Positions 348 to 64,000 of a stretch of DNA of 64,000 bases are shown here, piece by piece. The stretch lies in contig NC_132901.1 of NCBI RefSeq assembly GCF_030463535.1, positions 558,980 to 622,979 on the forward strand, written 5' to 3'. A program made the position numbers and the translations under genes. Below the pieces are notes generated by a model. It did no database searches, was not told where the DNA came from, and worked only from the letters and a program-made list of their open reading frames with translations. This stretch comes from Salminus brasiliensis. Lineage: Eukaryota > Chordata > Actinopteri > Characiformes > Bryconidae. Numbering within the stretch: the stretch's first letter is position 1; every line of letters starts with the position of its first letter.

Positions 348-476
348 GCTGGAGAAGATGAGGTGTGTTACACTTCATTAGATTTCCCAAGCAGAGGACA
401 GAAACATCTGAAGATGAAGAAGAGAGTGGATAGCTCTGATCTCTGTACATATTCTCATGTTCAGTACAAAGTTTAA
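348..476 (+). CDS. Terminal tyrosine-motif exon of a plus-strand receptor gene (5' exons outside the window)
   Basis: This is the last coding exon of a receptor of the same family, but on the opposite strand to every other member here. A CTCCTCAG acceptor ends at 347 and the exon is 129 nt, giving 42 residues and a TAA stop. Length and reading frame equal the last exon of gene A. It carries two tyrosine motifs: VCYTSL, which fits the ITIM pattern V/I/L/S-x-Y-x-x-L/V/I, and CTYSHV, where the -2 residue is Cys, so the second motif is weak. Between them is the family's RGQKHLKMKK basic stretch. The transmembrane and V exons must lie before base 1. A terminal exon this similar without a recoverable upstream gene could also be a stray fragment, but the intact acceptor, frame and downstream AATAAA favour a real gene end. 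It is tail-to-tail with gene A. Confidence 0.75.
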   Translation, partial: AGEDEVCYTSLDFPSRGQKHLKMKKRVDSSDLCTYSHVQYKV

Positions 477-681
477 CTGAGTGTAACACTGCTGAGGAAC
501 CTTTGTAACCTTCTGGAGGCCATGGAGATCCAGCATTGGCTTTTTTTATCTGACCATCTAGAAACAGTGAAGAAATAATCAGCCTATCAGTTTATTCAAC
601 TGTCATCCCAACATTGTTTGTTACACACAATATTTACAGTCACGTGTTAATAGATAGTGTTAATAGATTTTATGAATATGA

Positions 682-687
682 ATAAAA
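682..687 (+). terminator. Polyadenylation signal of the plus-strand receptor gene
   Basis: AATAAA lies 206 bp after the TAA of the 348-476 exon. A second AATAAA lies near 745. Assigned by position only. Confidence 0.5.
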
Positions 688-839
688 ATTGGTTTTTGTC
701 CTCAATTAAAATTTCGTCTCTTTTCCACTAACATCATTACACATTAATAAACTCCTGATCAAATTCTAGACTATGACCGAATCTCTGCAGTATGTTAGTG
801 TAACACAGAGGAGCCTGACGAAGAGCCTGAAGTCAAAAA

Positions 840-1560
840 ACAGGCAGAAGAGTTTAAAACCAGAAACCTCTAGAAAGTAGGAAACATGTCTGCAGAAGAA
901 GAAGATCCTAGACGAGTGAATGTAGAGTCAAAAGTCTAGATGGATTCAGAAGTTCCAGAAGAGTCAAAGTGTTGTCCGAATATTCTAGAGGAGTGAGGGT
1001 GAGAGTGAGGTAAGTGATTTCTAGAAAAGTGATGGTGGACACTGAAGGTGTTGGAAGAGTTAAGGCCGTGGTACACCTCTGTGCCAACACGCCCCACACA
1101 ATAAAGTTCTGAAGGAAGAGCGCCAATAAACTTTGTATACAGGAGCTCCTGTGACTAGTGTTTTCAGTATTTCCCCACTTCGTTGACCCAGCCTACTCCA
1201 TGTGTCTTTTAAAACACTGGAATCCTTACATTTACATTGAATTTGTTCAAGTCAAAAGTCATACAATTATTTTGGTTTAGATTTAATGCAAAAATGAAGG
1301 AATCCTGCATGGCATGATGAGGAATTGAACACTGAGTCCTTGATACATCTATCAAAGAAAAAGGTTGATTTGGCACTGATCTGCATGGCACAGTGGCGGG
1401 TGTTGAAGAAAGGCAGAAAAAGCATTTAGAAGGAATCACAGGGTGCTAGAAGACTTAGGGTAGAGTCAGAAGCTTCCAGAAGAGTGAGGGTAGAAACAGA
1501 AGTTTCTAGAAAAATAGACAGATTCAGAATGCATTAAAAAGAGTTCTACAGTTAGGGTTG
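840..1560. repeat. Degenerate minisatellite-like tract (TCTAGA / AGAGTGAGGGT words)
   Basis: Loosely repeated units built from TTCTAGA, AGAGTGAGGG and AGTCAGAAG recur at irregular 25-40 bp spacing, interrupted by unrelated sequence around 1100-1430. The rest of 688-2408 shows no exon, transposase or other recognisable gene. Confidence 0.4.
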
Positions 1561-1903
1561 TTGCCTATGTGGTCAGTCAGTAGGTTGTAGAAAACTAAGA
1601 TTAGAGTTTCTGCTCAAACAAAAGAGCATCAGAATGTCAAAGAACTCAAGTAAGAAGATGCCTTCTCTTGAAGCCCTCGAGTGATGGTTTCCTGTTTGTA
1701 TTAAGTGACTGTCGCTATCCGTGGTGCTGAAAAATTGAAGGGAAGACTCACAATGAGCATTGGTCTTTAACCCCCTGCTACTGCCCAGTTTACCCAGACA
1801 GTCCGCTCAATGAAGATTTGCAGCAGACTTATTCAAACCAGTTAATCCACATTACTTAAAATCTTTGACCTGCGACCAAGGTGAACCAAAATACAACTGA
1901 GAT

Positions 1904-1949
1904 CATAATAATAAAAATAATAATAAGAAGAAGAAGAAGAAGAAGAAGG
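1904..1949. repeat. Microsatellite (AAT)n/(AAG)n
   Basis: Compound trinucleotide run: AAT repeats pass directly into about eight AAG repeats. Confidence 0.85.
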
Positions 1950-2256
1950 ATTTAGAGAAGATTACTGAGCCTTGAGGTTCTGACAGCATCACAAAAATAC
2001 ATTTGAAAGGATTTTCATATTAATGTTTCCTAGTTTGATCAATGTATGGACACAAGATTCCTTTGCAAACATCTAACATATATTAAAAAGTGGAAAGTAC
2101 ACAGAGGTATACAGAAAATAATGGAGATGCAAAAAGTAAAGTCAACAGATAAACAGTTTTCTCAGAATGATGTTTTAATTAGGATTAATGAAGCATAAAC
2201 ATGATGCCTTAAAAATGTCAAAAATATAAGAGAAAATGTAGTCATTATAGATTTAG

Positions 2257-2308
2257 TAGTATTAGTAATAATAATAATAATAATAATAGTAATAATAATA
2301 ATAATAAA
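2257..2308. repeat. Microsatellite (AAT)n
   Basis: Run of AAT units with a few AGT interruptions, about 100-150 bp downstream of the stop codon of gene A. It probably lies in or just past the 3' UTR. Confidence 0.8.
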
Positions 2309-2408: not shown

Positions 2409-4463
2409 TTATGATCTCTCTGTTTTAACCTCAGAATAAGTGCTGAAAGCTGACCTCTCAATTTTCTTCTTCTTCAGAGGTTTCTGTTGTCTGCTTGGGA
2501 GATCCAATGAAGCATAACACACCTCACCTCCTCCAACCTGCAATCAATTTCACAACAGTTTGCATTTTTAAGATTTCTTCTAAAAAGACAGATTTAAAAC
2601 TATGGCATTTTAGGGTTTAGAACTTAGGGTTAGTGAGAGATAACCTAGATTAATGTTTATAAATTAAAAGGAATAAGCTGTTAAAATATTGTAAGATGTA
2701 AATAGATGTAAATATTGTCAATACATTATATACAAATTATATTGCACTTGTAAAATATCTGGAAATAACATTTACAAGAAGAAAAAAAACATCTTAACAG
2801 TATGAAGAAATCCTACTGACAGGAACCAAGACTTAAAAAGGAAAGACCTCTAAGGATGTTACTTGTCCCAAATTCACAAGTCCCCACCCAGGACACAGGA
2901 ATTGTGTAAGGGATGGGCTTATTGTCACTGGTTTTCCTTCACACAGAAGAATTCAATCTGAACCATGGATCAACTGAGTAATTTTAAACATCACTTGTGC
3001 ATTTGCAAAAGTGTACCCCGGTATCTCCAGGGACCCTGTGTTTAAGGTTCTCCCAGGGTACCTGGTAGAAGTGACACTGGACAGGGATGTCTGGAAATGA
3101 TTGCTTGCCCTATTGCCACTGTAGTTCTGAACTGGATCAAGTGGACTTGAGAAGGAGAATATGTAGAAGAACCACTAATTGTAGAAGAACTGGAAGGGTA
3201 TGAGGAACAACTACTGTGAGGAACCAAAGGTCCAAAAAACACCACAGAAAAGAACCAAATGTAAGCAATTCTGCCTTCAGACAGTGTGAGTGAGCATATT
3301 TCCCCATACCTGGTCAACTGTTTCGCTTGTTCTGTCTTTCCAATTCTTTGTTTTGCCTCTCTGTTCCAGACAAACTTTGGATTCTGCCATAAATACAACC
3401 ATTACATGTCCAGCCTGATGAAATCAGACTTCATACCAAAGCAGTTCTACATTTTCCTTGTATTTGTATCAAAAAAGCACAAATGATTGTTGTGTGCTCA
3501 ACAGACTCATTGACTAATCTATCTTTGAAATGATACAAGCAATTTCAGAAAGGGAATTGGAGGGTTAGGGTCAGTACCTTTAGTTCTGGTTCTGCAGATG
3601 CAGTACACACAGGTGGAGGAGAGCAGTGAAGAGAAGACGGCACTCAAAGGGCACACAGTGACCAGAAGCTTCCAGCAGGTGCTACAGTCTGATACAGGAG
3701 GAGTGGAGGTGGGTAGGGTGAGGTTGAAGCAAGGGTCTGAAATCAGACAGGATTTGGAGAAGAATGAAGTACAGCTAGAACTCGAGTGACCTCACAAATC
3801 CTTCTGCTCTCATAACTGTCTCAGTTTACCACAGCATAGAAGAATCATGGGACAATTAAAGAGTTCTTGTAGTTTTATGGTTTTAAGCTTAAAAATACTT
3901 ATAAATCTCAGGTCAGAAGAGTCAGAAGATCAGAGATCTTACCCAGGAGAGAGAGTCGAGTGGTTCTGTTCCCATAATGATAAATGTCCTTAAAGAGTGT
4001 AACTCCACTTTTATCTGTGGTAAGCTTTGTCTCCTTTATAGCGCAGTAGTACAGACCCAGATCTGATTCTGAGACGTTCTTCACCAGCAGGTCATGAGTT
4101 TGGTTGGATGGATTCCATACACCAGAGTAGCGTGGACGGTCACCGTTCATAAAATTCATAACTGACAGAATGAAAGGAGGTTGACGGTCATGTGAGCAGT
4201 TTCTAAACCAAACTGTAATTAATCCACTCTTCCAAACACAGTCGCTGTAGAGAGTGACAGTATCTCCTGGTCTGACTCTCATCTCCACTTCTTCTGCTCC
4301 AGAGATCCTGGAGAACCAAACACCTGAAACCCCTGAAACACACCAACCTCCCTTTAGACTCAGAAGATGCAGAAGATCAGCAGATCTCATCCAGTTGAAA
4401 ATGATCAGATATAATAGTCTACTTACACACGAGTTTGAGGAGAACAGCTCTCGACTTCTCCAT
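2409..4463 (-). CDS. Receptor gene A: V-set Ig, transmembrane, two-ITIM tail
   Basis: Predicted type I leukocyte-type receptor, 250 residues. Exons (minus strand, 5' to 3'): 4427-4463 signal peptide start MEKSRAVLLKLV; 3943-4323 V domain; 3578-3736 stalk and transmembrane; 3310-3356 juxtamembrane; 2409-2537 tail. Lengths 37+381+159+47+129 sum to 753 nt, in frame. The V domain has TLYSDC, a core Trp in VWFRNC and DLGLYYC, so three cysteines, plus N-glycosylation sequons NCS, NQT, NVS and NRT. The transmembrane segment after CWKLL is uncharged and Cys-rich, ending in ICRTRTK. The tail has VCYASL and STYSEV, both matching the ITIM pattern, separated by a lysine run. Exon 4 (reads GKTKNWKDRT) is the least certain exon: it resembles no other copy and its acceptor is weak. 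The stalk is longer than in B or D. The family name is not assigned. Confidence 0.8.
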
Positions 4464-4528
4464 CTCAGACACTGCTGCTGGGGGACTGATGGTGAAGAGG
4501 GTCTTTGAAGCGGATGTGTGTCGAAATC

Positions 4529-4548
4529 TGATTGGTCCACGTCAGTGG
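4529..4548 (-). promoter_or_regulatory. Proximal CRE-like/CCAAT module of gene A
   Basis: On the minus strand this reads CCACTGACGTGGACCAATCA with one variation at the edge: a CRE/ATF-like TGACGTGG immediately followed by an NF-Y-type CCAAT box, 66 bp before the ATG. The same module at almost the same distance precedes every gene of the cluster. Factor names are inferred from motif resemblance only. Confidence 0.65.
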
Positions 4549-7093: not shown

Positions 7094-9016
7094 TTATAAT
7101 CTCTCAGTTTTAATGTCAGAATATGTGCTGAAATCAGAGCTCTCAACTGTCTTCTTCTTCTTCAGACATTTCTGTCCTCTGCTTGGGAGATCCAGCGATG
7201 CATAACACACCTCACCTTCTCCTCCGTCCTGCAGATATTAAAAGTCAGATCTTAAGAGGGTGACCTGAGCTTGACTGATTGTCTTAAAATTCTAAAATTC
7301 GACTGGAAAATAAACTATGCAGATGTTTCCACTAAAGCTAAAGGGTCATTTAGAAAATCAAAATAACACCTCATCCAGTCCAGAGGCGAGGGAGCGTGAA
7401 CTGAATTAATGTTTGGGGGTGGGTCCAAAGATTGTTGGGGGGAAGAACGTCGTCTCTAGGTAACATCTATTTAATAATCCATCTGCTCAAGTTGTTGTTT
7501 CAGTATTTGGGACCATTTAAAGTCCATTTTAGAACCTTAAGCTGATTCTCAATGACGTGGAACCCTCAACCTTCTAGACTGCTGCTGCCTGTTTCCTCTG
7601 CACTGTTTGCACTGTTGGCGCTAAATGTAATCTTTTCAATCAAAGTTGTAGCTAAGTGGCTAATGCTAACAGGGTTAGGACTCAAGGCTATATACAGTTT
7701 TTAATGTAAATGATATGGTAAATGTTTTGAGTGTGTGTGGGCGAGTAAGGGAGAGAGAGTTACAGAGAGGTGGTAACCACAAATGTTTCAATGAGAGGCT
7801 TGAGCAAGGCCATTTACGGTACAGGTGTTAACTGTTTGTACCGTTTCATTCTTTCTGCTCTTCCGACATGATCGTCTGTTTCTCAGCTCCTGACCAGCTT
7901 CTTCTTCTGCTATGAAAGATCATTAATATTAAGTCAGACAATATCATCTAATTAAAACAAAGATCTACAGAAATAAAGTGGTTCTGATTCTTCAACACTA
8001 GAACCATCAAAGATCTACAGATTACAGCTGTGGTCAATCATAGGACATGCTGAACTTCTGTCAACTCAATGCTCAAACTGTCTTTTACTGTGAGGGGACA
8101 GCAGTGGACAACAGGGTAACATCAAATCAGAGCCCTTAGAAAAGTCCAGTCGTAGTGAGGTACCTTTGGTTCTTGTTCTGCAGAGGAAGTACACACAGGT
8201 GGAGGAGAGGAGAACACACACAGGACACACACTGACCAACAGCTTCCAGCAGCTGCATTCTGATACAGGAGGGGTGGAGGTGGTCTGCAGGTCTGAAATC
8301 AGAGAGGATTTGGAGAAGATTGAAGGCAGGAGATCTCAACATGTAAAGATAAAGTACAGCTAGAACTCGAGTGACCTCAGAAATCCTTCTGCTCTCATAA
8401 CTGTCTCAGTTTACCACAGCATAGAAGAATCATGGGACAATTGGGACATGGTTTTAAGCTTAAAAATACTTGTCAGAAGATCAGAGTGAGGGATCTTACC
8501 CAGGAGAGAAAGTCGAGTGGTTCTGTTCCCATAATGATAAATGCCTTTAGAGAGTATAACTCCATTTTTATCTTTGGTAAGGTTCTTCTTATGTATAGCA
8601 CAGTAGTACAAACCCAGATCTGATTCAGAGACGTTCTTCACCAGCAGGTCATGAGTTTGGTTGGATGGATTCCATACACCAGAGTAGCGTGGACGGTCAC
8701 CATTCATAAAATTCATAACTGACAGAATGAAAGGAGGTTGATGGTCATGTGAGCAGTTTCTAAACCAAACTGTATATAATCCACTCTTCCAAACACAGTC
8801 GCTGTAGAGAGTGACATTATCTCCTGGTCTGACTCTCAACTCCACTTCTTCTGCTCCAGAGATCCTGGAGAACCAAACACCTGAAACCCCTGAAACACAC
8901 CAACCTCCCTTTAGACTCAATGCAGAAGATCAGCAGATCTCATCCAGTTGAGAATGATCAGATATAATAGTCTACTTACACACGAGTTTGAGGAGAACAG
9001 CTCTCGACTTCTCCAT
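7094..9016 (-). CDS. Receptor gene B: V-set Ig, transmembrane, two-ITIM tail
   Basis: Predicted inhibitory receptor of 248 residues. Exons: 8980-9016 (MEKSRAVLLKLV), 8500-8880 V domain, 8164-8292 stalk and transmembrane, 7842-7906 juxtamembrane, 7094-7228 tail; 37+381+129+65+135 = 747 nt, in frame. The V domain reads TLYSDC, VWFRNC and DLGLYYC (three cysteines) and ends GNRTTRLSLLG at the phase-1 donor. The transmembrane exon is four residues shorter than in C or I but still has about 21 uncharged residues. Exon 4 is strongly charged (EEEAGQELRNRRSCRKSRK). The tail carries VCYASL and STYSDI, both ITIM-like, so recruitment of SH2 phosphatases is inferred. The hydrophobic core of the signal peptide is interrupted by a Lys, as in A, C, D and E. 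A second in-frame acceptor lies 9 nt upstream of the V exon (end 8889). Confidence 0.85.
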
Positions 9017-9083
9017 CTCAGACACTGCTGCTGGGTGGTTGATGGTGATGAGGGTCTTTGAAGCGGATGTGTGTATTGAGCTC

Positions 9084-9103
9084 TGATTGGTCCACGTCAG
9101 TGG
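9084..9103 (-). promoter_or_regulatory. Proximal CRE-like/CCAAT module of gene B
   Basis: Perfect copy of the module, 68 bp before the ATG. Confidence 0.65.
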
Positions 9104-11045: not shown

Positions 11046-12446
11046 TCAGTCTGATTTGAGGGCAGAGTTCAGAGCTGTGTATGATACTTCAGTGTGACAG
11101 CAGAACTTCCCCCTCATGCTTCTCTCACATTGATGCTTCTCAGCACTGCCCACCTAATTGAGAGAGAAAGAGAGAACTAATCAATACCTACTCAATAACT
11201 ACAGATATCAGTAACTACAGCAGCAGTGTACAGGTGTGTGTGTGATGATGATCTACCTGATACACTTTGTCAGTGAGCAGCTCTCTTCTCTCTTCAGAAC
11301 CTGAGGAGATCAACCAAAGACCACCATCAACACCAGTCTACCAGCCTCTGTCTCTTTATGTGCAGAAGCACCTCCACCATGAGAATGAGCCCCAAAGAAT
11401 GAAGTGTGCATAATAGTAATTACTCAGCGCCCCCTCTGGTGAGGAAGGAGAATGCAGCACCATGAACAGGACAGTGAGACACGTCTGATGAAGAACATTG
11501 AGACATGTAGATCTTTCTAGTGATCAGAGTTCATAAAATGATTAATAAAGTACCTCTGTTTCTGGTTCTGAAGGTGAAGTACACACAGGTGGAGGAGAGC
11601 AGTGAGCAGAGAAGAACACACACAGGACACACACTGACCAGCAGCTTCCAGCACTCTGATATGGGAGGGGTGGAGGTGGTCTGCAGGTCTGAAATCAGAG
11701 AGGATTTGGAGAAGAATGAAGGCAGGAGATCTCAACATGTAAAGATAAAGTACAGCTAGAACTCAAGTGACCTCAGAAATCCTTCTGCTTTCGTAACTGT
11801 CTCAGTTTACCACAGCATAGAAGAATCATGGGACAATTAAAGAGTTCTTGTAGTTTTATGGTTTTAAGCTTTAAAATACTTAAAGAAATTCTCAGGTCAG
11901 AAGAGTCAGAAGATCAGAGTCAGGGATCTTACCCAGGAGAGAGAGTCGAGTGGTTCTGTTCCCATAATGATAGACATCCTTAGAGAGTATAACTCCATTT
12001 TTATCTTTGGTAATGTTTCTCTCGTGTAGAGCGCAGTAGTACAAACCCAGATCTGATTCAGAGACGTTCTTCACCAGCAGGTCATGAGTTTGGTTGGATA
12101 GATTATACACACTGGAGTAACATGGATGGTCATCCCTTGTCAAATCCAGAGCTGAGATAATAAGAGGAGGTTGATGGTCATGTGAGCAATTTCTAAACCA
12201 AACTGTATATAATCCACTCTTCCAAACACAGTCGCTGTAGAGAGTGACATCATCTCCTGGGCTGACTCTCAACTCCACTTCTGCTCCAGAGATCCTGGAG
12301 AACCAAACACTTGAAACCCCTGAAACACACCAACCTCCCTTTAGACTCAATGCAGAAGATCAGCAGATCTCATCCAGTTGAGAATGATCATATATAATAG
12401 TCTACTTACACATGAGTTTGAGGAGAACAGCTCTCGACTTCTTCAT
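11046..12446 (-). CDS. Receptor gene C: V-set Ig, transmembrane, single-ITIM tail
   Basis: Predicted receptor of 236 residues with a tail unlike B. Exons: 12410-12446 (MKKSRAVLLKLM), 11933-12319 V domain, 11554-11688 stalk and transmembrane, 11257-11300 juxtamembrane, 11046-11153 tail; 37+387+135+44+108 = 711 nt, in frame. Exon 4 reads GSEERRELLTDKVYQ. The tail has one clear ITIM, EVSYTAL, and no lysine run. The V domain has TLYSDC, VWFRNC, DLGLYYC and an additional Cys in DHPCYSS, where the paralogue D has Arg. The usual V-exon acceptor CAG is changed to CAA, so splicing must use the alternative AG 9 nt upstream, adding three residues before VWFSR. The transmembrane segment ends YFTFRTRNR instead of ICRTRTK. 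Confidence 0.82.
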
Positions 12447-12513
12447 CTCAGACACTGCTGCTGGGGGACTGATGGTGAAGAGGGTCTTTAAAGCGGATGT
12501 GTGTGTTGAGCTC

Positions 12514-12533
12514 TGATTGGTCCACGTCAGTGG
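12514..12533 (-). promoter_or_regulatory. Proximal CRE-like/CCAAT module of gene C
   Basis: Perfect copy, 68 bp before the ATG. Confidence 0.65.
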
Positions 12534-15507: not shown

Positions 15508-17519
15508 TTACAATCTCTCAGTTTTAATCTCAGAATATGTGCTGAAATCAGAGCTCTCAACTGTCTTCTTCTTCTTCAGACGTTTCTGTCCTCTGCTCGG
15601 AAGATCCAGCGATGCATAACACACCTCACCTTCTCCTCCATCCTGCAGATATTAAAAGTCAGATCTTGAGAGGGTGACCTGAGCTTGATTGATTGTCTTA
15701 AAACACTAAAATTCTACTGGAAAATAAACTGTGCAGATGTTTCCACTAAAGCTGAAGGGTCATTTGATTATAGAAAATAAAAATAACACCTCATCCAGTC
15801 CAGAGACGAGAGAGCATGGACCGAATTAACTTTTGGGGGTGGGTCCAATGACAGTCGATTGTTGGGGGAAGAACGTCGTCTCTAGGTAACATCTAGTGAA
15901 TAATCCATTCGCTCAAGTTGTTTTTCCTGTCCTCACAAAATCAGTACTTGGAACCATTTAAAGTCAATTTTAGAACCTTAAGCTGATTCTCAATGACGTG
16001 GAACCCTCGACCTTCTAGCGTCTCCTCTGCACTGTTTGCACTGTTGCTTGCATCATTGCTAAAGGTAATATTTTCAATGAAAGTTGTAGCTAGGTGGCTA
16101 ATGTTAACAGGTTTAGGACTTAAGGCTATATACAGCTTTGAATGTATATGATATGGTAAATGTTTTGAGTGTGTGTGGGCGAGTAAGGGAGAGAGAGTTA
16201 CAGAGAGGTGGTAACCACAAATGTTTCAATGAGAGGCTTGAGCAAGGCCATTTATGGTACAGGTGTTTACTGTCTGTACCTTTTCATTATTTCTGCTCTT
16301 CCGACATGATCGTCTGTTTCTCAGCTCCTGACCAGCTTCTTCTTCTGCTATGAAAGATTATTAAAGTTAAGTCAGACTTAATATCATCCAATTAAAACAA
16401 AGATCTACAGAAATAAAATGGTTTGTCTATAGTCCGGATTCTGGTTCTGATTCTGATACTTCAAAACTAGAACCATCAATGATCTACAGATTACAGCTGT
16501 GGTCAATCATAGGACATGCTGAACTTCTGTGAATTCAATGCTCAAACTGTCTTTTACTGTCAGAGGACAGCAGTGGACAACAGGGTAACATCAAATCAGA
16601 GCCCTTGGAAAAGTCCAGTTGAAGTGAGGTACCTTTGGTTCTGGTTCTGCAGAGGAAGTACACACAGGTGGAGGAGAGGAGAACACATACAGGACACACA
16701 CTGACCAGCAGCTTCCAGCAGCTGCACTCTGATACAGGAGGGGTGGAGGTGGTCTGCAGGTCTGAAATCAGAGAGGATTTGGAGAAGACTGAAAGCAGAA
16801 GATCTCAACATGTAAAGATAAAGTACAGCTAGAACTCGAGTGACCTCAGAAATCCTTCTGCTCTCATAACTGTCTCAGTTTACCACAGCATAGAAGAATC
16901 ATGGGACAATTGAAGAGTTCTTGTAGTTTTATGGTTTTAAGCTTTAAAATACTTAAAGAAATTCTCAGGTCAGAAGAGTCAGAAGATCAGAGTGAGGGAT
17001 CTTACCCAGGAGAGAGAGTCGAGTGGTTCTGTTCCCAAAATGATAGACATCCTTAGAGAGTATAACTCCATTTTTATCTTTGATAATGTTTATCTTGTGT
17101 AGAGCGCAGTAGTACAAACCCAGATCTGATTCAGAGACGTTCTTCACCAGCAGGTCATGAGATTGGTTGGATAGATTATACACACTGGAGTAACGTGGAT
17201 GGTCATCCCTTGTCAAATCCAGAGCTGAGATAATAAGAGGAGGTTGATGGTCATGTGAGCAGTTTCTAAACCAAACTGTATATAATCCACTCTTCCAAAC
17301 ACAGTCGCTGTAGAGAGTGACATTATCTCCTGGGCTGACTCTCATCTCCACTTCTGCTCCAGAGATCCTGGAGAACCAAACACCTGAAACCCCTGAAACA
17401 CACCAACCTCCCTTTAGACTCACTGCAGAAGATCAGCAGATCTCATCCAGTTGAGAATGATCAGATATAATAGTCTACTTACACACGAGTTTGAGGAGAA
17501 CAGCTCTCGACTTCTCCAT
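15508..17519 (-). CDS. Receptor gene D: V-set Ig, transmembrane, two-ITIM tail (B type)
   Basis: Predicted 247-residue receptor, paralogue of B. Exons: 17483-17519, 17006-17383 V domain, 16633-16761 transmembrane, 16280-16344 juxtamembrane, 15508-15642 tail; 37+378+129+65+135 = 744 nt, in frame. The tail has VCYASL and STYSEI. The V domain differs from B by one missing Glu near the start (GAEVEMRV), and its centre (LIISALDLTRDDHPRYSS) matches gene C rather than B. V exons and tails therefore do not share one history, which points to gene conversion or exon exchange between neighbours. The cysteines are TLYSDC, VWFRNC and YYC. Four N-glycosylation sequons are present. Confidence 0.85.
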
Positions 17520-17586
17520 TTCAGACACTGCTGCTGGGGGACTGATGGTGATGAGGGTCTTTGAAGCGGATATGTGTATTGAGCTC

Positions 17587-17606
17587 TGATTGGTCCACGT
17601 CAGTGG
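17587..17606 (-). promoter_or_regulatory. Proximal CRE-like/CCAAT module of gene D
   Basis: Perfect copy, 68 bp before the ATG. A second, weaker copy lies near 17744. Confidence 0.65.
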
Positions 17607-20889: not shown

Positions 20890-20956
20890 CTCAGACACTG
20901 CTGCTGGGGGACTGATGGTGAAGAGGGTCTTTGAAGCGGATGTGTGTATTGAGCTC

Positions 20957-20976
20957 TGATTGGTCCACGTCAGTGG
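20957..20976 (-). promoter_or_regulatory. Proximal CRE-like/CCAAT module of gene E
   Basis: Perfect copy, 68 bp before the ATG. A second copy lies near 21114. Confidence 0.65.
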
Positions 20977-32912: not shown

Positions 32913-32976
32913 CTCGGATACTGGCGCTGGATGGCTGATGACAATGAGGGTCTCTGCTGAGGTCTGGGCTGAGGTC

Positions 32977-38894: not shown

Positions 38895-38950
38895 CTGAAA
38901 CACCTGGTAACGGTCTTTATAGTGGATGCACAGATGTCTGTGTTGAGTTG

Positions 38951-41738: not shown

Positions 41739-41805
41739 CTCAGAGAGCAGTGCTGGGTGGCTGGCGGTGGTGAGGGTGTTTGAAGCGGATGTGTGTGCTG
41801 AGCTC

Positions 41806-43434: not shown

Positions 43435-44960
43435 CTACACTCTCTCAGTTTTAACCTCAGAATAAGTGCTGACATCAGAGCTCTCAACGTTCTTCTTCTT
43501 CTTCTTCTTCAGACGTTTCTGTCCACTGTTTGGGAGATCCAACGTAGCGTAACAAACATTCTCACCTCCGGCCTACAGAGATGTAGAAGCATCATATTAA
43601 TGAAGCACACTGAGATCACTGTAAGTGCTGGTAAAGTGCTGTAGACTGTAGAGTAAGTGTGAATGCATGCTGTACCTCGTTACTCTTCCTCATCTTCATG
43701 TTCTCTCGTTGTTCTGCTCTACAGTCAGCTGTTACGATTAGGAAGAACATGAGGATAGTCAGATAGGCTCACGTTACGGTGACTACGACTCTACCATGCA
43801 TTCAAATCAGAGAAAGAGAGAGAGAGAAAGTACCTTTGGTTCTGGTTCTGCAGATGCAGTACACACAGGTGGAGGAGATCAGTGAGGAGAGGAGAACACA
43901 CACTGGACACACACTGACCAGCAGCTTCCAGCAGATGCTACAGTCTGATACAGGAGGGCAAGGGCTGGGTTGGGGTTGGCTGGTACAGGGAACGGTCATG
44001 TCTGAAATAATTGAGAAAGAAACTAAGTTAATTAGCATCCAAATCTGTTTGAGGCACTAATGAATGATCTAACAGTATTTGGCTTTAACTTCGAGTCCAA
44101 GACTATGAGAGTCCAGACCAAGTATACCCAACAGCAGAGACCACGTCAAGCCCAAATATTATGTCCAAGTTCACTAAAACTGTGGAAGAACCTTTTAAGA
44201 TACTTTGAGGTCCTTCAAGAAAATGATTTTGGAAAGAAAATGTTCCTTGAAGGTTCCTCAAAGCACTTTAAGAGAATCTTCCACAGTTTCAAACTGAAGA
44301 ACCTCCAAAGGTTCCTCAATGATCGTATACTTTTAACAGTGTACAAATACTATGTAGACCAACACATGTCTGAGAGATTAGACAAAGCATGGTGCATCCA
44401 AGGCTGACTGTAAAACAACAGCACTAGAATGAGAGAGTAAAACTGAGTAATCTTACCAAGGAAAGAGAGAAAAGTGGTTCTGTTTCCATCCTGATAAATA
44501 TCTTCATTGACCTTATCTCCACTTCTATTCTTGCAGACCTTTGTCTGATGTAGAGCACAGTAGTACAGACCCAGGTCAGATTCAGAGACGTTCTTCACCA
44601 GCAGATCGTAAGTGTTGTTGGATTGATTCCACACTACAGAGTACTGTGAAGAAAAATCAAGACCAGAACTATCTGCTGATATGACGAGAGGTGGTTGATG
44701 ATCATGTAAGGATTTTCTCAACCACTTTAATATAAATCTAGCTTTCCAAACACAGTCGCTGTGGAGAGTGACATTGTCACCTGGTCTCACTCTCATCTCC
44801 ACGACTCTTCCAGAGGTGCTGGAGAACCGAACACCTGAAACACCAGCAACACTTTAGATGAAGCCGTTTAAGGTATTCCTAACCAGGTTCTGTTGAACGG
44901 GTATTACTGGACAGTTTACTTACCCAAGAGAATGAGGAGAACAGCATGAAATCTCTCCAT
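43435..44960 (-). CDS. Receptor gene I: V-set Ig, transmembrane, two-ITIM tail
   Basis: Predicted 252-residue receptor. Exons: 44924-44960 (MERFHAVLLILL), 44457-44834 V domain, 43834-44001 stalk and transmembrane, 43676-43713 juxtamembrane (EQRENMKMRKSNE), 43435-43572 tail; 37+378+168+38+138 = 759 nt, in frame. The V domain has two cysteines, LHSDC and LYYC; the RNCS cysteine is absent (WLRKSLHD), so one disulfide is expected. The stalk is Pro/Ser/Thr rich. The transmembrane segment [18 protein letters not shown] is uncharged and ends ICRTRTK. The tail has VCYATL and STYSEV with six Lys between. The signal peptide is a good hydrophobic one. The AG-rich microsatellite (CTCTCT on the coding strand) starts only a few bases after the transmembrane exon donor. 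Confidence 0.85.
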
Positions 44961-45027
44961 CTCAGAGACTGGTGCTGGGGGGCTGATGGTGGTGAGGGTG
45001 TTTGAAGCGGATGTGCTTGCTGAGATC

Positions 45028-45047
45028 TGATTGGTCCACGTCAGTGG
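45028..45047 (-). promoter_or_regulatory. Proximal CRE-like/CCAAT module of gene I
   Basis: Perfect copy, 68 bp before the ATG. Confidence 0.65.
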
Positions 45048-47038: not shown

Positions 47039-48584
47039 CTACATTCTCTCATATACTACTTCGGAATATATGTGTTTCTTCTTCAGCCAATCCAGTCCTT
47101 TGTGCAGGAGATCCAACGAAGTGTAACAAATGTCCTCATGTCCAACCTGCAGACCAAGCTTCTCTTTTAGAAAACTAATAATGAGGTGCAGAAGCATCAT
47201 ATTAATGAAGCACACTGAGATCACTGTATGTGCAGGTAAAGTGCTGTAGACTGTAGAGTAAGTGTGAATGCATGCTGTACCTCGTTACTCTTCCTCATCT
47301 TCATGTTCTCTCGTTGTTCTGCTCTACAGTCAGCTGTTACGATTGGGAAGAACATGAGGATAGTTAGACAGGCACACGTTACAATGTCTACGACTCAACC
47401 ATGCATTCAAATCAGAGAAAGAGAGAGAGAGAAAGTACCTTTGGTTCTGGTTCTGCAGATGCAGTACACACAGGTGGAGGAGATCAGTGAGGAGAGGAGA
47501 ACACACACTGGACACACACTGACCAGCAGCTTCCAGCAGACGCTACAGTCTGATACAGGAGGGCAGGGGCTGGGTTGGGGTTGGCTGGTACAGGGGATGG
47601 TCACGTCTGAAATAAGCAAGAAAGAAATTGCTTTAATTAGGTGATCAGAATTCCCTTAATAATAATAATTAATAATATACTGTTTCATTCACACAGTAAT
47701 GTTAATTAATTACTCCATTTGGCTTTAACTTCAGCACAGTCAAGAAGCCTTTCTTGAGTTGAAAACCATTCAAAAACTGAGTAGTCAAAACTGTCTAAAT
47801 GAGAGTAGAGATCATGTCAAGGTCAAGTCGAAGGGAATTTTGAGACCAAGTCCAAATACAAATACTTGGGAGACCTGAACAAGTCCAAGGATAAAGAAAT
47901 TCTGAGATTAGAGGTATCTTTGAATTATTAGTCCATTCAAACTAGGTACTACCAAATAGAATGAATTCCAATACAATTCTGACAATAAGACAAAAGATCT
48001 CAAGTTCAAGACCGACTTGTGAACTGCAGCGGGAATCAGAGGGTAAAATCTTACCAAGGAAAGAAAGAAGTGTGACTCTGTTTCCATCCTGATAGATGTC
48101 TTCATAGACTGGATCTCCACTTTTGTTCTTAACCATCTTTTTCCTATGTAGGGAGCAGTAGTACAGACCTAGATCAGATTCTGTAACATTCTTCACCAGC
48201 AAACTGTAGCTTTGGCTGGAGATATTCCACACTACGGAGTACCGTGGAAGAACATTCTGGCCCAAATCCTTTGCTGATACATTGAGAGGTGGTTGATGAT
48301 CATGTAAGGGTTTTCTGAACCACATTATTCTATATCCAGTCGTCCAAACACAGTCGCCGGGGAGAATGATATCATCTCCAGGTCTCACTCTCAGCTTCAC
48401 AAATCTTCCAGAGGTGCTGGAGAACCAAACACCTGAAACACAAAATGAAATCCTATTGAAGCGAAGACACACACACAACCAAGCCCTTCTCACAGCTTTG
48501 TGATATCGCAAGATATGCCATGAGATGAAGTTAGATGGTTTACTTACCCAGGAGAGCGAGGAGAACAGCTCTAGATCTCTCCAT
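47039..48584 (-). CDS. Receptor gene J: V-set Ig receptor with shortened tail
   Basis: Predicted 242-residue receptor. Exons: 48548-48584 (MERSRAVLLALL), 48055-48432 V domain, 47439-47606 transmembrane, 47281-47318 juxtamembrane, 47039-47146 tail; 37+378+168+38+108 = 729 nt, in frame. The V domain has two cysteines: LPGDC (the usual Ser before DC is Gly) and LYYC, with RKPLHD in place of RNCS. The tail is 35 residues: ICYTSL fits an ITIM, but the lysine run and following linker are reduced to LKKKH, and the second tyrosine is in HIYSEV, which lacks the required -2 residue. J therefore probably has one strong motif. The proximal CCAAT box is mutated and no distal block is found upstream, so expression may differ from its neighbours. 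Confidence 0.82.
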
Positions 48585-48651
48585 CTCAGAGACTGGTGCT
48601 GGGGGGCTGATGGTGGTGAGGGTGTTTGAAGCGAATGTGCTTGCTGAGATC

Positions 48652-48671
48652 TGATTAGTCCACGTCAGTGG
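48652..48671 (-). promoter_or_regulatory. Proximal module of gene J with mutated CCAAT box
   Basis: TGATTAGTCCACGTCAGTGG on the plus strand: CCAAT has become CTAAT. The CRE-like TGACGTGG and the 68-bp spacing to the ATG are unchanged. Confidence 0.6.
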
Positions 48672-50502: not shown

Positions 50503-51977
50503 CTACACTCTCTCAGTTTTAACCTCAGAATAAGTGCTGAAATCAGAGCTCTCAACGTTGTTCTTCTTCTTCTTCAGACGTTTCTGTCCACTGTTTGGGA
50601 GATCCAACGTAGCGTAACAAACATTCTCACCTCTGGCCTACAGAGATGTAGAAGCATCATATTAATGAAGCACACTGAGATCACTGTAAGTGCTGGTAAA
50701 GTGCTGTAGACTGTAGAGTAAGTGTGAATGCATGCTGTACCTCCTTACTCTTCCTCATCTTCATGTTCTCTCGTTGTTCTGCTCTACAGTCAGCTGTTAT
50801 GATTAGGAAGAACATGAGGATAGTCAGACAGGCTCACGTTACGGTGACTACGACTCTACCATGCATTCAAATCAGAGAAAGAGAGAGAGAGAAAGTACCT
50901 TTGGTTCTGGTTCTGCAGATGCAGTACACACAGGTGGAGGAGATCAGTGAGGAGAGGAGAACACACACTGGACACACACTGACCAGCAGCTTCCAGCAGA
51001 TGCTACTGTCTGAGACAGGAGGGCAGGGGGTGGGTTGGGGTTGGCTAGTACAGGGAACGGTCACGTCTGAAATAATTGAGAAAGAAACTACGTTAATTAG
51101 CATCCAAATCTGTTTGAGGCACTGATGAATGATCTAACAGTCTTTGGCTTTAACTTCGAGTCCAAGACTATGAGAGTCAAGACCAAGTATACCCAACAGC
51201 AGAGACCACGTCAAGCCCAAATACTATGTCCAAGTTCACTAAAACTGTGGAAGAAACTTTTAAGATACTTTGGAAATGATTTTGGAAGGAAAATGTTCCT
51301 TGAAGGTTCCTCAAAGCACTTTAAGAGAATCTTCCACAGTTTCAAACTGAAGAACCTCCAAATGTACTATGTAGACCAACACATGTCTGAGAGATTAGAC
51401 AAAGCATGGTGCATCCAAGGCTGACTGTAAAACAACAGCACTAGAATGAGAGAGTAAAACTGAGTAATCTTACCAAGGAAAGAGAGAAAAGTGGTTCTGT
51501 TTCCATCCTGATAAATATCTTCATTGACCTTATCTCCACTTCTATTCTTGCAGACCTTTGTCTGATGTAGAGCACAGTAGTACAGACCCAGGTCAGATTC
51601 AGAGACATTCTTCACCAGCAGATCGTAAGTGTTGTTGGATTGATTCCACACTACAGAGTACTGTGAAGAAAAATCACGACCAGAACTATCTGCTGATATG
51701 ACGAGAGGTGGTTGATGATCATGTAAGGATTTTCTCAACCACTTTAATTTAAATCCAGCTTTCAAAACACAGTCGCTGTGGAGAGTGACATCGTCACCTG
51801 GTCTCACTCTTATCTCCACGACTCTTCCAGATGTGCTGGAGAACCGAACACCTGAAACACCAGCAACACTTTAGATGAAGCCGTTTAAGGTATTCCTAAC
51901 CAGGTTCTGTTGAACGGGTAATACTGGACAGTTTACTTACCCAAGAGAACGAGGAGAACAGCATGAAATCTCTCCAT
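50503..51977 (-). CDS. Receptor gene K: near-duplicate of gene I
   Basis: Predicted 251-residue receptor. Exons: 51941-51977 (MERFHAVLLVLL), 51474-51851 V domain, 50899-51066 transmembrane, 50741-50778 juxtamembrane, 50503-50637 tail; 37+378+168+38+135 = 756 nt, in frame. It differs from I by a few substitutions. In the V domain FILKWLRK is FKLKWLRK, VWKARF is VLKAGF (the Trp after DC is Leu) and MRVRPG is IRVRPG. The tail has KKKKNN in place of six Lys, and FSTYSEV. The motifs VCYATL and STYSEV are both kept. About 30 bp in the transmembrane-V intron are missing relative to I. It is most likely functional, with ligand-facing changes if the V domain binds through its CC' face. Confidence 0.85.
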
Positions 51978-52044
51978 CTCAGAGACTGGTGCTGGGGGGC
52001 TGATGGTGGTGAGGGTGTTTGAAGCGGATGTGCTTGCTGAGATC

Positions 52045-52064
52045 TGATTGGTCCACGTCAGTGG
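52045..52064 (-). promoter_or_regulatory. Proximal CRE-like/CCAAT module of gene K
   Basis: Perfect copy, 68 bp before the ATG. Confidence 0.65.
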
Positions 52065-54049: not shown

Positions 54050-55105
54050 CTACATTCTCTCATATACTACTTCGGAATATATGTGTTTCTTCTTCAGCCA
54101 ATCAAGTCCTTTGTGCAGGAGATCCAACGAAGTGTAACAAATGTCCTCATGTCCAACCTGCAGACCAAGCTTCTCTTTTAGAAAACTAATACTGAGGTGC
54201 AGAAGCATCATATTAATGAAGCACACTGAGATCACTGTATGTGCAGGTAAAGTGCTGTAGAATGTAGAGTAAGTGTAAATGCATGCTGTACCTCGTTACT
54301 CTTCCTCATCTTCATGTTCTCTCGTTGTTCTGCTCTACAGTCAGCTGTTACGATTGGGAAGAACATGAGGATAGTCAGACAGGCTCACGTTACAATGGCT
54401 ACGACTCTACCATGCATTCAAATCAGAGAAAGAGAGAGAGAGAAAGTACCTTTGGTTCTGGTTCTGCAGATGCAGTACACACAGGTGGAGGAGATCAGTG
54501 AGGAGAGGAGAACACACACTGGACACACACTGACCAGCAGCTTCCAGCAGATGCTACAGTCTGATACAGGAGGGCAGGGGCTGGGTTGGGGTTGGCTGGT
54601 ACAGGGGATGGTCATGTCTGAAATAAGCAAGAAAGAAATTGCTTTAATTAGGTGATCAGAATTCCCTTAATAATAATAATTAATAATATACTTTTTTATT
54701 CACACAGTAATGTTAATTAATTACTCCATTTGGCTTTAACTTCAGCACAGTCAAGAAGCCTTTCTTGAGTTGAAAACCATTCAAAAACCGATTAGTCAAA
54801 ACTGTCTAAATGAGAGTAGAGACCATGTCAAGGTCAAGTCGAAGGGAATTTTGAGACCAAGTCCAAATACAAATACTTGGGAGACCTGCACAAGTCCAAG
54901 GATAAAGAAATTCTGAGATTAGAGGTATCTTTGAATTATTAGTCCATTCAAACTAGGTACTACCAAATAGAATGAATTCCAATACAATTCTGACAATAAG
55001 ACAAAAGATCTCAAGTTCAAGACCGACTTGTGAACTGCAGCGGGAATCAGAGGGTAAAATCTTACCAAGGAAAGAAAGAAGTGTGACTCTGTTTCCATCC
55101 TGATA
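54050..55105 (-). pseudogene. Receptor gene L (J type), truncated by a LINE junction
   Basis: The tail (54050-54157, with ICYTSL and IYSEV), juxtamembrane (54292-54329) and transmembrane (54450-54617) exons are intact copies of J. The V exon starts normally at its donor (55066) but only 40 nt remain. At 55105, in the codons for the G strand, the sequence changes abruptly into the 5' end of a LINE. The rest of the V exon and the signal exon are not found beyond the LINE, where different sequence begins. It cannot encode a receptor; at most a fragment with no promoter of its own. Confidence 0.88.
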
Positions 55106-60270: not shown

Positions 60271-62201
60271 TTATAATCTCTCAGTTTTAATGTCAGAATA
60301 TGTGCTGAAATCAGAGCTCTCAACTGTCTTCTTCTTCTTCAGACATTTCTGTCCTCTGCTTGGGAGATCCAGCGATGCATAACACACCTCACCTTCTCCT
60401 CCGTCCTGCAGATATTAAAAGTCAGATCTTAAGAGGGTGACCTGAGCTTGACTGATTGTCTTAAAATTCTAAAATTCGACTGGAAAATAAACTATGCAGA
60501 TGTTTCCACTAAAGCTAAAGGGTCATTTAGAAAATCAAAATAACACCTCATCCAGTCCAGAGGCGAGGGAACGTGAACTGAATTAATGTTTGGGGGTGGG
60601 TCCAAAGATTGTTGGGGGGAAGAACGTCGTCTCTAGGTAACATCTATTTAGTAATCCATCTGCTCAAGTTGTTGTTTCAGTATTTGGGACCATTTAAAGT
60701 CCATTTTAGAACCTTAAGCTGATTCTCAATGACGTGGAACCCTCAACCTTCTAGACTGCTGCTGCCTGTTTCCTCTGCACTGTTTGCACTGTTGGCGCTA
60801 AATGTAATCTTTTCAATCAAAGTTGTAGCTAAGTGGCTAATGCTAACAGGGTTAGGACTCAAGGCTATATACAGTTTTTAATGTAAATGATATGGTAAAT
60901 GTTTTGAGTGTGTGTGGGCGAGTAAGGGAGAGAGAGTTACAGAGAGGTGGTAACCACAAATGTTTCAATGAGAGGCTTGAGCAAGGCCATTTACGGTACA
61001 GGTGTTAACTGTTTGTACCGTTTCATTCTTTCTGCTCTTCCGACATGATCGTCTGTTTCTCAGCTCCTGACCAGCTTCTTCTTCTGCTATGAAAGATCAT
61101 TAATATTAAGTCAGACAATATCATCTAATTAAAACAAAGATCTACAGAAATAAAGTGGTTTGTCTATAGTCTGGATTCTGGTTCTGATTCTTCAACACTA
61201 GAACCATCAAAGATCTACAGATTACAGCTGTGGTCAATCATAGGACATGCTGAACTTCTGTCAACTCAATGCTCAAACTGTCTTTTACTGTGAGGGGACA
61301 GCAGTGGACAACAGGGTAACATCAAATCAGAGCCCTTAGAAAAGTCCAGTCGTAGTGAGGTACCTTTGGTTCTGGTTCTGCAGAGGAAGTACACACAGGT
61401 GGAGGAGAGGAGAACACACACAGGACACACACTGACCAACAGCTTCCAGCAGCTGCACTCTGATACAGGAGGGGTGGAGGTGGTCTGCAGGTCTGAAATC
61501 AGAGAGGATTTGGAGAAGATTGAAGGCAGGAGATCTCAACATGTAAAGATAAAGTACAGCTAGAACTCAGAGTGACCTCAGAAATCCTTCTGCTCTCATA
61601 ACTGTCTCAGTTTACCACAGCATAGAAGAATCATGGGACAATTGGGACATGGTTTTAAGCTTAAAAATACTTGTCAGAAGATCAGAGTGAGGGATCTTAC
61701 CCAGGAGAGAAAGTCGAGTGGTTCTGTTCCCATAATGATAAATGCCTTTAGAGAGTATAACTCCATTTTTATCTTTGGTAAGGTTCTTCTTATGTATAGC
61801 ACAGTAGTACAAACCCAGATCTGATTCAGAGACGTTCTTCACCAGCAGGTCATGAGTTTGGTTGGATGGATTCCATACACCAGAGTAGCGTGGACGGTCA
61901 CCATTCATAAAATTGGTTGAGGTTGATGCTCATGTGAGCAGTTTCTAAACCAAACTGTATATAATCCACTCTTCCAAACACAGTCGCTGTAGAGAGTGAC
62001 ATTATCTCCTGGTCTGACTCTCAACTCCACTTCTTCTGCTCCAGAGATCCTGGAGAACCAAACACCTGAAACCCCTGAAACACACCAACCTCCCTTTAGA
62101 CTCAATGCAGAAGATCAGCAGTTCTCATCCAGTTGAGAATGATCAGATATAATAGTCTACTTACACACGAGTTTGAGGAGAACAGCTCTCGACTTCTCCA
62201 T
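60271..62201 (-). pseudogene. Receptor gene M (B type) with a frameshift in the V exon
   Basis: Exons match B: 62165-62201, 61701-62065 V domain, 61364-61492 transmembrane, 61019-61083 juxtamembrane, 60271-60405 tail (VCYASL, STYSDI). The V exon is 365 nt rather than 381. At about 61915 the 22 bases that encode the C'-C'' region in B are replaced by GGTTGA, next to another GGTTGA, a net loss of 16. The frame is lost between SHEHQP and MNGDRPRYSG. Everything else, including splice sites and promoter, is intact. It would otherwise encode a protein almost identical to B. The small direct repeat at the scar suggests microhomology-mediated repair. Confidence 0.78.
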
Positions 62202-62268
62202 CTCAGACACTGCTGCTGGGTGGTTGATGGTGATGAGGGTCTTTGAAGCGGATGTGTGTATTGAGCTC

Positions 62269-62288
62269 TGATTGGTCCACGTCAGTGG
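62269..62288 (-). promoter_or_regulatory. Proximal CRE-like/CCAAT module of gene M
   Basis: Perfect copy, 68 bp before the ATG. A second copy is near 62426. Confidence 0.65.
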
Positions 62289-62892
62289 AAAATGTCTCTG
62301 TATCTAAATTATCACCGTTCGTCAGGTTCAAAAATAACCACGTGCAAAAACAACACAGGCCAATCACAGGCTTGCGTTCGGTCACCTTTCTTAGAACAGC
62401 CTTCAGTGTAGATGTTTCTCACGTCTGATTGGTCCACGTCAATGGAATATTTCTCTTGTCTGAGCAGATTTGGGGTAGGGGTAAATAGACTATAGGAGGC
62501 TTTGGTAAACCAGCTTCCTGTTTCCATTCAAATTGACAAGATATGGTCAGTTCAGCCTTTCTACAGAATTAGAGCAGAGCAGAAGGTCTGAGAGCAAGTG
62601 TTTATCCAATAAACAGATGCTCCTTAAAAGTGCAGTTTAGGACCAGTGACTCATGTAGTTTACTGTATTATATTATATCCGCCAAATGAGAGGTCACTTT
62701 AACACACACTCAATCAAATCCGACAGCACTGTAATGAGAGATACAGTATAGAGTGATGGTACAGCTGATTGGGTGCTAATTTTAACTGGTGAAAAGCTCT
62801 TTATATAGTTATTAGGTAAATCTTCTACATTTAGAGAGGTTTTAGGCCTATATGACATACAGGAGATATTTCATCCTTAATACCAGTCAGAG

Positions 62893-62925
62893 GGCCTCAA
62901 TGTGGGTTTCCTGTTGCAGTGTGGC
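62893..62925 (-). promoter_or_regulatory. Distal conserved block upstream of gene M
   Basis: Core AATGTGGGTTTCCTGTTGC, as for gene B. Confidence 0.5.
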
Positions 62926-63846
62926 TGCAGAGTGTATGGTGTTGTTTTGCTTGATAGACAAACCAACCACAGTTTTTTTCTTTATTATTGCCCTAGCTTT
63001 GTCCTGTCATGCCAGTGGGTTGTGGTAAACCCCTAATAAGGTCATACAACACTTGCAATTGACCAACTCTAGCTTTTCTTAAATTTGATCAGTTATTAAA
63101 ATTTTTACATTCAGTTCTGAGTGTTTTGGTCTCTAACAACTGGTTAGTATTAGTAATTAGTTTGCAAATGAGTGACACACCCAAAGACTTCTCCAATCTT
63201 GTCAGTTTGGAACTGTTCTACTGTCAGTGGTTCGAAGGACCTATTGTCTATATCAATAATGTTTTGCTGGATTTCCATCATTGACCAGGTACCTTCACTT
63301 TCAGTCACGTTCAGCACTTTAATCCAATACAGCCTGAATGTGTTAGTGTGAGATGAATGATACCCAGAGTTACTCATAGTTGTACCTACTGGTCATGCTC
63401 ATCTGGAGATAGACATGTTGCCAGTGTTACTGTTCCTCCCTTTATTTACAGCCTCTAAAACACACAACCTAAGGACACTGATCAAGGGTCCAACCCTGGC
63501 AGCCTAGCAGATGCAGCCATGTATCCCTCAACCCTGTGACCAATAACCCAGTGTTGTAACCACAGAGCCACCGCAGCCATGTAGATTGAGGAGATATCTA
63601 CCCATTGTTTGTATAGCATGTCATGCAGCAAGTCTGTTTACATAACTGATCCTTTAGTTTGGACTATCTAGAACCTTCCTTAAGGCCTCAGGACCAGTGA
63701 TCTGGCCGCTCTGTTCAGTTTGCTCTGAATTTACAGTCTCAATCCCTCCACCTAAACCCAGAAAACCCAAAGTGAGACTCAACAGTGTAAACCATGTGTT
63801 TGGAAAGGAATTCAGGACAGAAATGAAAGACTGATCTGATCTTTCC
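62926..63846. other. Intergenic between M and N
   Basis: Parallels 9741-10958 with a ~310-bp gap. Around 63135 it follows the D-side wording (CAACAACTGG) rather than the B-side. No gene recognised. Confidence 0.5.
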
Positions 63847-63852
63847 AATCTT
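63847..63852 (-). terminator. Polyadenylation signal of gene N
   Basis: Minus-strand AATAAA as at 10959 and 19385. Confidence 0.55.
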
Positions 63853-63953
63853 TTATTTCTTCATCTTCTGTAAAAACACTCGTAGATTCTGTGACGTAAT
63901 AGCTCAAACATGGAGCTTCTAATAAGTGGCGTCTCGGCCTGAAGTTGGCGAGT

Positions 63954-64000
63954 TCAGTCTGATTTGAGGGCAGAGTTCAGAGCTGTGTATGAGACTTCAG
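63954..64000 (-). CDS. Gene N: 3' end of a C/E-type receptor tail, cut by the window edge
   Basis: The final 47 nt correspond to the end of the single-ITIM tail exon of C and E, through the stop codon: SYTALNSALKSD. The rest of the gene should follow beyond 64000, completing a third B-C type gene pair. Intactness cannot be judged. Confidence 0.7.
   Translation of the reverse strand, partial: EVSYTALNSALKSD

Follow-up and report, generated by a model that had tools for sequence, protein, structure and literature searches.

What do the repeated immunoglobulin (Ig) domain genes at this locus encode, and do they belong to a receptor family already named in fish? The window, by which we mean the whole 64,000-nucleotide stretch analysed, covers C28:558980-622979 of the 1.066-Gb Salminus brasiliensis assembly, and positions without a contig prefix refer to it. 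Judged from their sequence, its genes are best read as germline-encoded inhibitory receptors that recruit SH2 phosphatases, a function that we consider probable. The kind of locus is ordinary, a fish array of receptors with immunoreceptor tyrosine-based inhibitory motifs (ITIMs). Two features of it are unusual: a displaced cysteine in the variable-type (V) domain and a promoter element before the leader exon. Both are new beyond a preliminary description of the window, as are a second tail type, the shuffling of V and tail exons, and the extent of the array.

Gene structure and ITIM tails

Exons were located by searches with leader, V, transmembrane (TM) and tail peptides. The design comprises five exons in phases 1,1,1,0: a leader exon (SP, 37 or 40 nt), one V-type Ig domain (V, 354-387 nt in the in-frame genes), stalk and transmembrane segment (TM, 129-168 nt), a short cytoplasmic exon (E4, 44-74 nt) and the ITIM exon (E5, 108-138 nt). 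The minus strand of the window holds 13 V, 13 TM and 13 tail exons (11 long and 2 short, that of H being degenerate), plus the end of one further tail at the edge. These form 15 loci (A-G, H, H2 and I-N). The full set of five exons is present in 11 (A-G, I, J, K and M). In nine of these (A, B, C, D, F, G, I, J and K) the exon sum is a multiple of three, the phases are 1,1,1,0 and there is no internal stop; E and M carry a frameshift in V. No second Ig exon was found in any of the nine intact genes. The preliminary description had listed 15 minus-strand loci and one plus-strand tail, the five-exon design with these phases, and the same nine intact genes. Exon-by-exon searches, the gene models of the 11 complete loci, and the frame and phase check bear out all three. 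The loci are as follows.

2409..4463, minus strand: gene A, intact, two ITIMs (SP 4463-4427, V 4323-3943, TM 3736-3578, E4 3383-3310, E5 2537-2409)
7094..9016, minus strand: gene B, intact, two ITIMs (SP 9016-8980, V 8880-8500, TM 8292-8164, E4 7906-7842, E5 7228-7094)
11046..12446, minus strand: gene C, intact, short-tail type, one ITIM, VSYTAL (SP 12446-12410, V 12319-11933, TM 11688-11554, E4 11300-11257, E5 11153-11046)
15508..17519, minus strand: gene D, intact, two ITIMs (SP 17519-17483, V 17383-17006, TM 16761-16633, E4 16344-16280, E5 15642-15508)
19487..20889, minus strand: gene E, V frameshift, short-tail type (SP 20889-20853, V 20753-20374, TM 20136-20002, E4 19742-19699, E5 19594-19487)
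23624..26990, minus strand: gene F, intact, two ITIMs (SP 26990-26951, V 26777-26424, TM 25683-25546, E4 25365-25298, E5 23755-23624)
30634..32912, minus strand: gene G, intact, two ITIMs (SP 32912-32876, V 32677-32321 with four Cys, LYCDC, TM 31191-31024, E4 30911-30862, E5 30768-30634)
37480..38898, minus strand: locus H, old pseudogene with a fragmented V, an Arg in its TM and a degenerate tail
41010..41744, minus strand: locus H2, old pseudogene, leader-like exon, broken V
43435..44960, minus strand: gene I, intact, two ITIMs (SP 44960-44924, V 44834-44457, TM 44001-43834, E4 43728-43676, E5 43572-43435)
47039..48584, minus strand: gene J, intact, one ITIM, ICYTSL, and non-consensus HIYSEV (SP 48584-48548, V 48432-48055, TM 47606-47439, E4 47333-47281, E5 47146-47039)
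50503..51977, minus strand: gene K, intact, two ITIMs (SP 51977-51941, V 51851-51474, TM 51066-50899, E4 50793-50741, E5 50637-50503)
54053..55105, minus strand: locus L, truncated, tail, E4 and TM exons and the last 14 V codons (55105-55064)
60271..62201, minus strand: gene M, V frameshift, copy of B (SP 62201-62165, V 62065-61701, TM 61492-61364, E4 61083-61019, E5 60405-60271)
63957..63998, minus strand: locus N, end of a short-type tail exon, V beyond the window at C28:624197
348..464, plus strand: tail exon, V exon beyond the window at C28:556559-556909

In gene C (12300-12446) the second V acceptor is gone, with CAA in place of CAG, and the upstream one is kept in frame, so that the leader of C is unlike that modelled for its sister genes. 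The fourth exon of F (25365-25298) is conserved in the second copy of the region.

Taking (S/I/V/L)xYxx(I/V/L) in the cytoplasmic tail as the consensus, at least one ITIM is present in all 28 tail exons taken from the whole array and two in 18 of them, a count that omits the degenerate tails of H, of H's copy and of the 547-kb pseudogene. A shuffled D tail holds two ITIMs with P=0.0013. The two tyrosine motifs, V/I-x-Y-x-x-L and S-T-Y-S-E/D-V/I, lie 26-30 residues apart with a lysine-rich stretch between them. The ITIM tails of the preliminary description thus stand, with the restriction that some members have a single consensus ITIM: J, L and two copies beyond the window, likewise the plus-strand tail, and the second, short tail type found in C, E, N and two copies beyond the window. 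Its statement that no member has a charged TM residue holds for the nine intact window genes but not for pseudogene H, with its Arg. Architecture, ITIM conservation and the uncharged TM together support its reading of an inhibitory receptor family.

The tandemly arrayed genes would accordingly specify germline-encoded type I membrane receptors, each with a single V domain and an inhibitory tail. The V domain may bind a ligand on a cell surface or a pathogen. Src-family kinases would phosphorylate the tyrosines of the two last-exon motifs, and the two phosphotyrosines would recruit the tandem SH2 domains of SHP-1 or SHP-2, by which cell activation would be damped; short-tail members would signal through their one ITIM. 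Mammalian receptors of the KIR/LILR type, which the family would resemble in its working, also form tandem arrays with copy-number turnover, ITIM tails and pseudogenes. They have two to four C2 domains, whereas there is one V domain here and no charged TM among the nine intact genes.

The proportions of nonsynonymous and synonymous differences give pooled ratios (pN/pS) of 0.70 for V (140 of 253 pairs, those with synonymous divergence, dS, <0.6), 0.53 for TM and 0.50 for the tail. Within V the ratio is 1.31 in the stretch resembling complementarity-determining region 1 (CDR1) and 0.16 in strand F, and dN/dS exceeds 1 for a small number of closely related V pairs, such as C/D with 2.66 on 9 and 1 changes. 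Positive selection is not claimed, as these are pairwise Nei-Gojobori (NG86) estimates only. The pooled V ratio, being below 1, counts against the receptor reading. Of the "rapidly evolving" family described earlier, the variation in copy number and loops stands. Exchange between neighbouring genes may have joined like V exons to unlike tail exons.

It could be argued that the array is dying, or that its products serve in adhesion or as decoys, and that the tail motifs are relics and not working ITIMs. The broken window loci H, H2, E, M and L and the drift of the V exons would fit such a history. However, nine of the 15 window loci are intact, every one of the 28 tails keeps a consensus ITIM, and the tail pN/pS lies below that of V; we regard this explanation as improbable.

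The array is larger than the window. It spans about 156 kb on contig C28, from about 542 to 698 kb, overshooting the window by about 17 kb on the left and about 75 kb on the right. Over C28 500-730 kb we counted 33 V exons of the family, 25 of them open. The left end has four, all on the plus strand, of which 2 are open; the window has 13 (9 intact, 2 frameshifted and 2 in old pseudogenes); and a further 16, with 14 open, lie to the right of it. At loci outside the window "open" was judged from the V frame only. A unit of about 53 kb is repeated in tandem with blocks 96-99% identical, and M and N are therefore the start of the second copy. Within the window the repeat is seen as two 4.6-kb copies, 5371-9949 and 58548-63134, that are 98.7% identical. 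The repeat may be a true duplication or a second haplotype left unresolved in the assembly. The 4.6-kb copies hold a fragment of a Tc1-like transposase (DDE_3) in addition to receptor B or M.

A divergent relative, 36% identical to D, is located on C1:19581205-19581567 and has a TM exon and a tail with VYYASL and STYSEV, the tail being spotted by eye. At that locus (L026 2535-5618, minus strand) we also noted a V with six Cys in the exon stretch, a TM and a two-ITIM tail. A genome-wide search with the D tail gave 19 matches, all in the C28 array. In a viral contig collection searched for the family, 62 pattern matches were obtained and none was confirmed. One 26-residue match in a Lachnospiraceae metagenome-assembled genome, from the genome contig collection, was set aside as chance or contamination.

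The displaced cysteine of the V domain

In the numbering of D, we take position 27 to be that of the expected strand-B Cys, seven residues after a Gly and twelve before a Trp. In 20 of 24 V domains this canonical Cys is absent and a Cys is found two residues later. Cys 27 is present in 4/24 rows, Cys 29 in 23/24, Cys 43 in 15/24 and Cys 94 in 24/24, and no row lacks both Cys 27 and Cys 29. All four cysteines occur together in gene G, in its copy and in the C1 relative. The simplest reading of this pattern is that the core bond has moved to 29-94 and that the four-cysteine form represents the intermediate.

Alternatively, Cys 29 pairs with Cys 43 and leaves Cys 94 free, so that no shifted bond between strands B and F exists. 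The presence of Cys 43 in most copies speaks for such pairing, as does the short gap of 10 residues from Cys 29 to Trp 39, by which position 27 still resembles the canonical site. Yet the nine rows without Cys 43, which imply at least four changes on the tree, all retain Cys 29 and Cys 94 without Cys 27. In five of them (F, F2, J, x667 and x692) the V exon encodes no further Cys, and in I, K, x663 and x684 it encodes one more. For the family as a whole we find the 29-43 pairing rather unlikely, though in the three-cysteine members a 29-43 bond with a free Cys 94 is possible.

DSSP assigns the same short B strand (23-25) in both AlphaFold models, and the disulfide question is therefore undecided by DSSP. 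The Foldseek/VIA matches listed for the predicted fold are antibody, nanobody, VNAR, T-cell receptor (TCR) and shark CD8alpha V domains. It counts against the receptor reading that the D model aligns only moderately, with a best E of 2.3e-4, TM-scores of at most 0.57 and root-mean-square deviations of 4.7-9.8 among the 50 matches listed. No NITR, TREM or CD300 chain is among the Foldseek matches listed, which excludes nothing. The matches listed from sequence searches of the PDB were generic V domains or Ig domains of other types. Rfam gave no match at the gathering threshold.

A conserved element upstream of the leader exon

All 11 five-exon genes of the window carry the 17-mer TGACGTGGACCAATCAG, with at most one mismatch, 63-69 bp upstream of the ATG. 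Allowing up to three mismatches, there are 19 matches in the window against 0.26 expected. The 17-mer contains a match to the unfolded protein response element (UPRE) and, on the opposite strand, one to the endoplasmic reticulum (ER) stress response element II (ERSE-II). According to PMC8301375 the consensus sequences are TGACGTGG/A and ATTGG-N-CCACG, respectively, and the readers XBP1s, ATF6 and NF-Y. The copies before the 11 genes are the following.

4528..4544, minus strand: promoter 17-mer of gene A, TGACGTGGACCAATCAG, UPRE and ERSE-II match
9083..9099, minus strand: promoter 17-mer of gene B, second copy 9240-9256 (1 mismatch)
12513..12529, minus strand: promoter 17-mer of gene C, second copy 12643-12659 (3 mismatches)
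17586..17602, minus strand: promoter 17-mer of gene D, second exact copy 17744-17760
20956..20972, minus strand: promoter 17-mer of gene E, second exact copy 21114-21130
27060..27076, minus strand: promoter 17-mer of gene F, with the ERSE-II core unaffected by its 1 mismatch
32976..32992, minus strand: promoter 17-mer of gene G
45027..45043, minus strand: promoter 17-mer of gene I
48651..48667, minus strand: promoter element of gene J, with CTAAT in place of CCAAT
52044..52060, minus strand: promoter 17-mer of gene K
62268..62284, minus strand: promoter 17-mer of gene M, second exact copy 62425-62441

Exact ERSE-II cores number 27 in 230 kb against 0.30 expected, all of them at receptor loci, and among 55 loci examined matches were found in 15, all pieces of the array. 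Across seven representative genes, 19 of the best 20 columns are invariant (mean 3.2). Upstream, D matches F, G and I with identities of 0.68-0.96 over the last 100 bp, against 0.14-0.19 over the 25 bp that precede these. The exact core is present at 20 of 25 open-V loci, including eight of the nine intact window genes, and at both recently frameshifted loci (E and M); it is found at none of six old pseudogenes (Fisher 0.0006, or 0.005 with duplicated pseudogenes counted once, values that are indicative only as the rows are related). Some loci weigh against a general role of the element: J and J's copy have lost the CCAAT box, x542, x556 and x624 are without the exact core despite an open V, and no ERSE-II-like element was found in the 10 kb examined at the C1 relative.

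A promoter of the SXY type known from MHC genes was set aside because the CCAAT box and the box resembling a cAMP response element (CRE) are only one base apart. An alternative is an ordinary promoter of CRE-like and CCAAT boxes, read by CREB/ATF1 and NF-Y and unrelated to ER stress or XBP1. Both boxes are common in promoters, and conservation speaks for a functional core promoter but not for the factor that binds it. On the other side stands the exact match to the UPRE and ERSE-II consensus at once, with the one-base gap of ERSE-II as given in PMC8301375. We hold the ordinary promoter to be somewhat less than an even chance. The presence of the UPRE/ERSE-II element at most open genes suggests that their expression is tied to the secretory or ER-stress state, with ATF6, XBP1 and NF-Y as the putative binding factors.

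Kinship with named families and genomic surroundings

In a tree of 53 V rows, the 24 family rows form one clade (95/86) that includes none of the 29 other rows from the same genome (NITR V, NITR I, C19 NITR-like, CD300/NILT-like, butyrophilin, TCR and Ig), the labels of which are presumptive and were assigned by us from their motifs. This separateness is weakened by the deeper branches, which have low support, and by several long comparison rows. The family sits in the same weakly supported half of the tree as the NITR rows, and joining it with NITR is not rejected (p of the approximately unbiased test, p-AU, 0.089 with four NITR V rows and 0.21 with three NITR I rows).

The cluster may be an offshoot of the NITRs, or this species' version of another named fish family such as DICP (single-Ig members). 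Apart from the joint constraint, an NITR origin is favoured by the best BLAST match of D outside the family, an NITR I domain (36% over 102), and by a loose J-like end, TXLX(V/L/I), in 11 of the 24 V rows (absent in 13). According to PMC2442602, the NITR J motif is FGXGTXLX(V/L), and FGXG, TXLX(V/L/I) or parts of both count as J-like variants. The same paper describes NITRs as clustered fish V receptors with a mostly uncharged TM, one or two ITIMs, and leader, V, TM and two cytoplasmic exons, as here; most have an I domain with six cysteines and some have none. In contrast, the prototypic FGXG was found in none of the 24 family rows and an I-domain exon in none of the nine intact genes. In BLAST, D is only 25-27% identical to the four NITR V rows, and the presumed NITRs of this genome lie outside the family clade, on C9, in a cluster with FGEGT in V and a second Ig exon that we read as NITRs from these features. 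On balance we judge membership in a named family, as an NITR offshoot or otherwise, to be rather unlikely.

DICPs are marked by D1/D2-type Ig domains and LITR/MDIR by a multi-Ig FcR/KIR-like or modular ectodomain; the present family has a single V domain. Like the DICPs, it consists of fish multigene ITIM receptors. DICP and LITR recruit SHP1 according to PMC8662705, and for DICP this would fit a common origin with the present family.

NILT and CD300-like receptors share the V domain, last-exon ITIMs, an ITIM exon in phase 0, and clusters with pseudogenes and transposons, according to PMC3022915. There, salmon single-Ig NILT genes have six exons in phases 1,1,1,1,0 with a connecting-peptide exon and a CX3C pair, whereas the present genes have five in phases 1,1,1,0. 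The second Cys pair (CX3C, CX6C or CX7C in NILT; two pairs with WCR in CD300) was not found here: after the strand-C Trp there is one Cys at W+4 in 15/24 rows and none in 9/24, and no CXnC. By exon, phase and Cys tests the family is not a NILT.

The earlier remark that the genes are not clearly one of the named families stands as regards the NILT/CD300 hallmarks, the NITR J motif and the separate clade; a sister relation to NITR is not rejected. Searches of an open-access library listed no paper that deals with these receptors, with ERSE-II at NITR-like genes or with a V disulfide shifted in strand B. In the sense that no paper listed there describes it, and with sequence comparison drawn from this one genome, the family is apparently an unnamed one. 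We also noted a cluster of V exons on C19:32.58-32.75 Mb (L029, L042) ending in FSNGTFLAVTG or FFNGTFVAVTG. It forms a separate clade in the V tree and is presumably NITR-like or perhaps DICP.

The array is flanked on the left by SRCR exons and weak Ig matches and on the right by a gene with a STIM1 SOAR domain (Pfam 5.8e-7). Further left, C28:500331-528844 (L009-L011) is a 14-kb tandem duplication (98.6%) with SRCR and Ig-like exons, possibly another receptor array. Within the window, locus L is adjoined by a non-long-terminal-repeat (non-LTR) retrotransposon at 55167-58286 on the plus strand, in which two open pieces match reverse transcriptase and endonuclease is matched weakly. Inverted arms of 175 nt, 91% complementary and 941 nt apart, are found at 14176-15466, a stretch that resembles Tc1-like sequence at 5.9-6.8 kb. 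Between exons four and five of F, an open frame of 133 residues with hydrophobic stretches (24141-24542, minus strand) gave no Pfam match.

Fish already have several innate inhibitory receptor sets, and a further one with its own V clade may be present here. As a tentative and more far-reaching proposal, this may be a new ITIM family wired to the unfolded protein response (UPR) through the fused UPRE/ERSE-II element that most working copies carry and that was lost in old pseudogenes, so that secretory or ER-stressed leukocytes would raise their own brakes, and in which the core disulfide of V also moved from Cys 27-Cys 94 to Cys 29-Cys 94, by way of a form with four cysteines that G and the C1 relative still show. 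If true, the displaced Cys kept through repeated duplication would provide a natural series for the moving of an Ig disulfide, and the shared UPR-type element would link inhibitory signalling to ER stress or the plasma-cell state.

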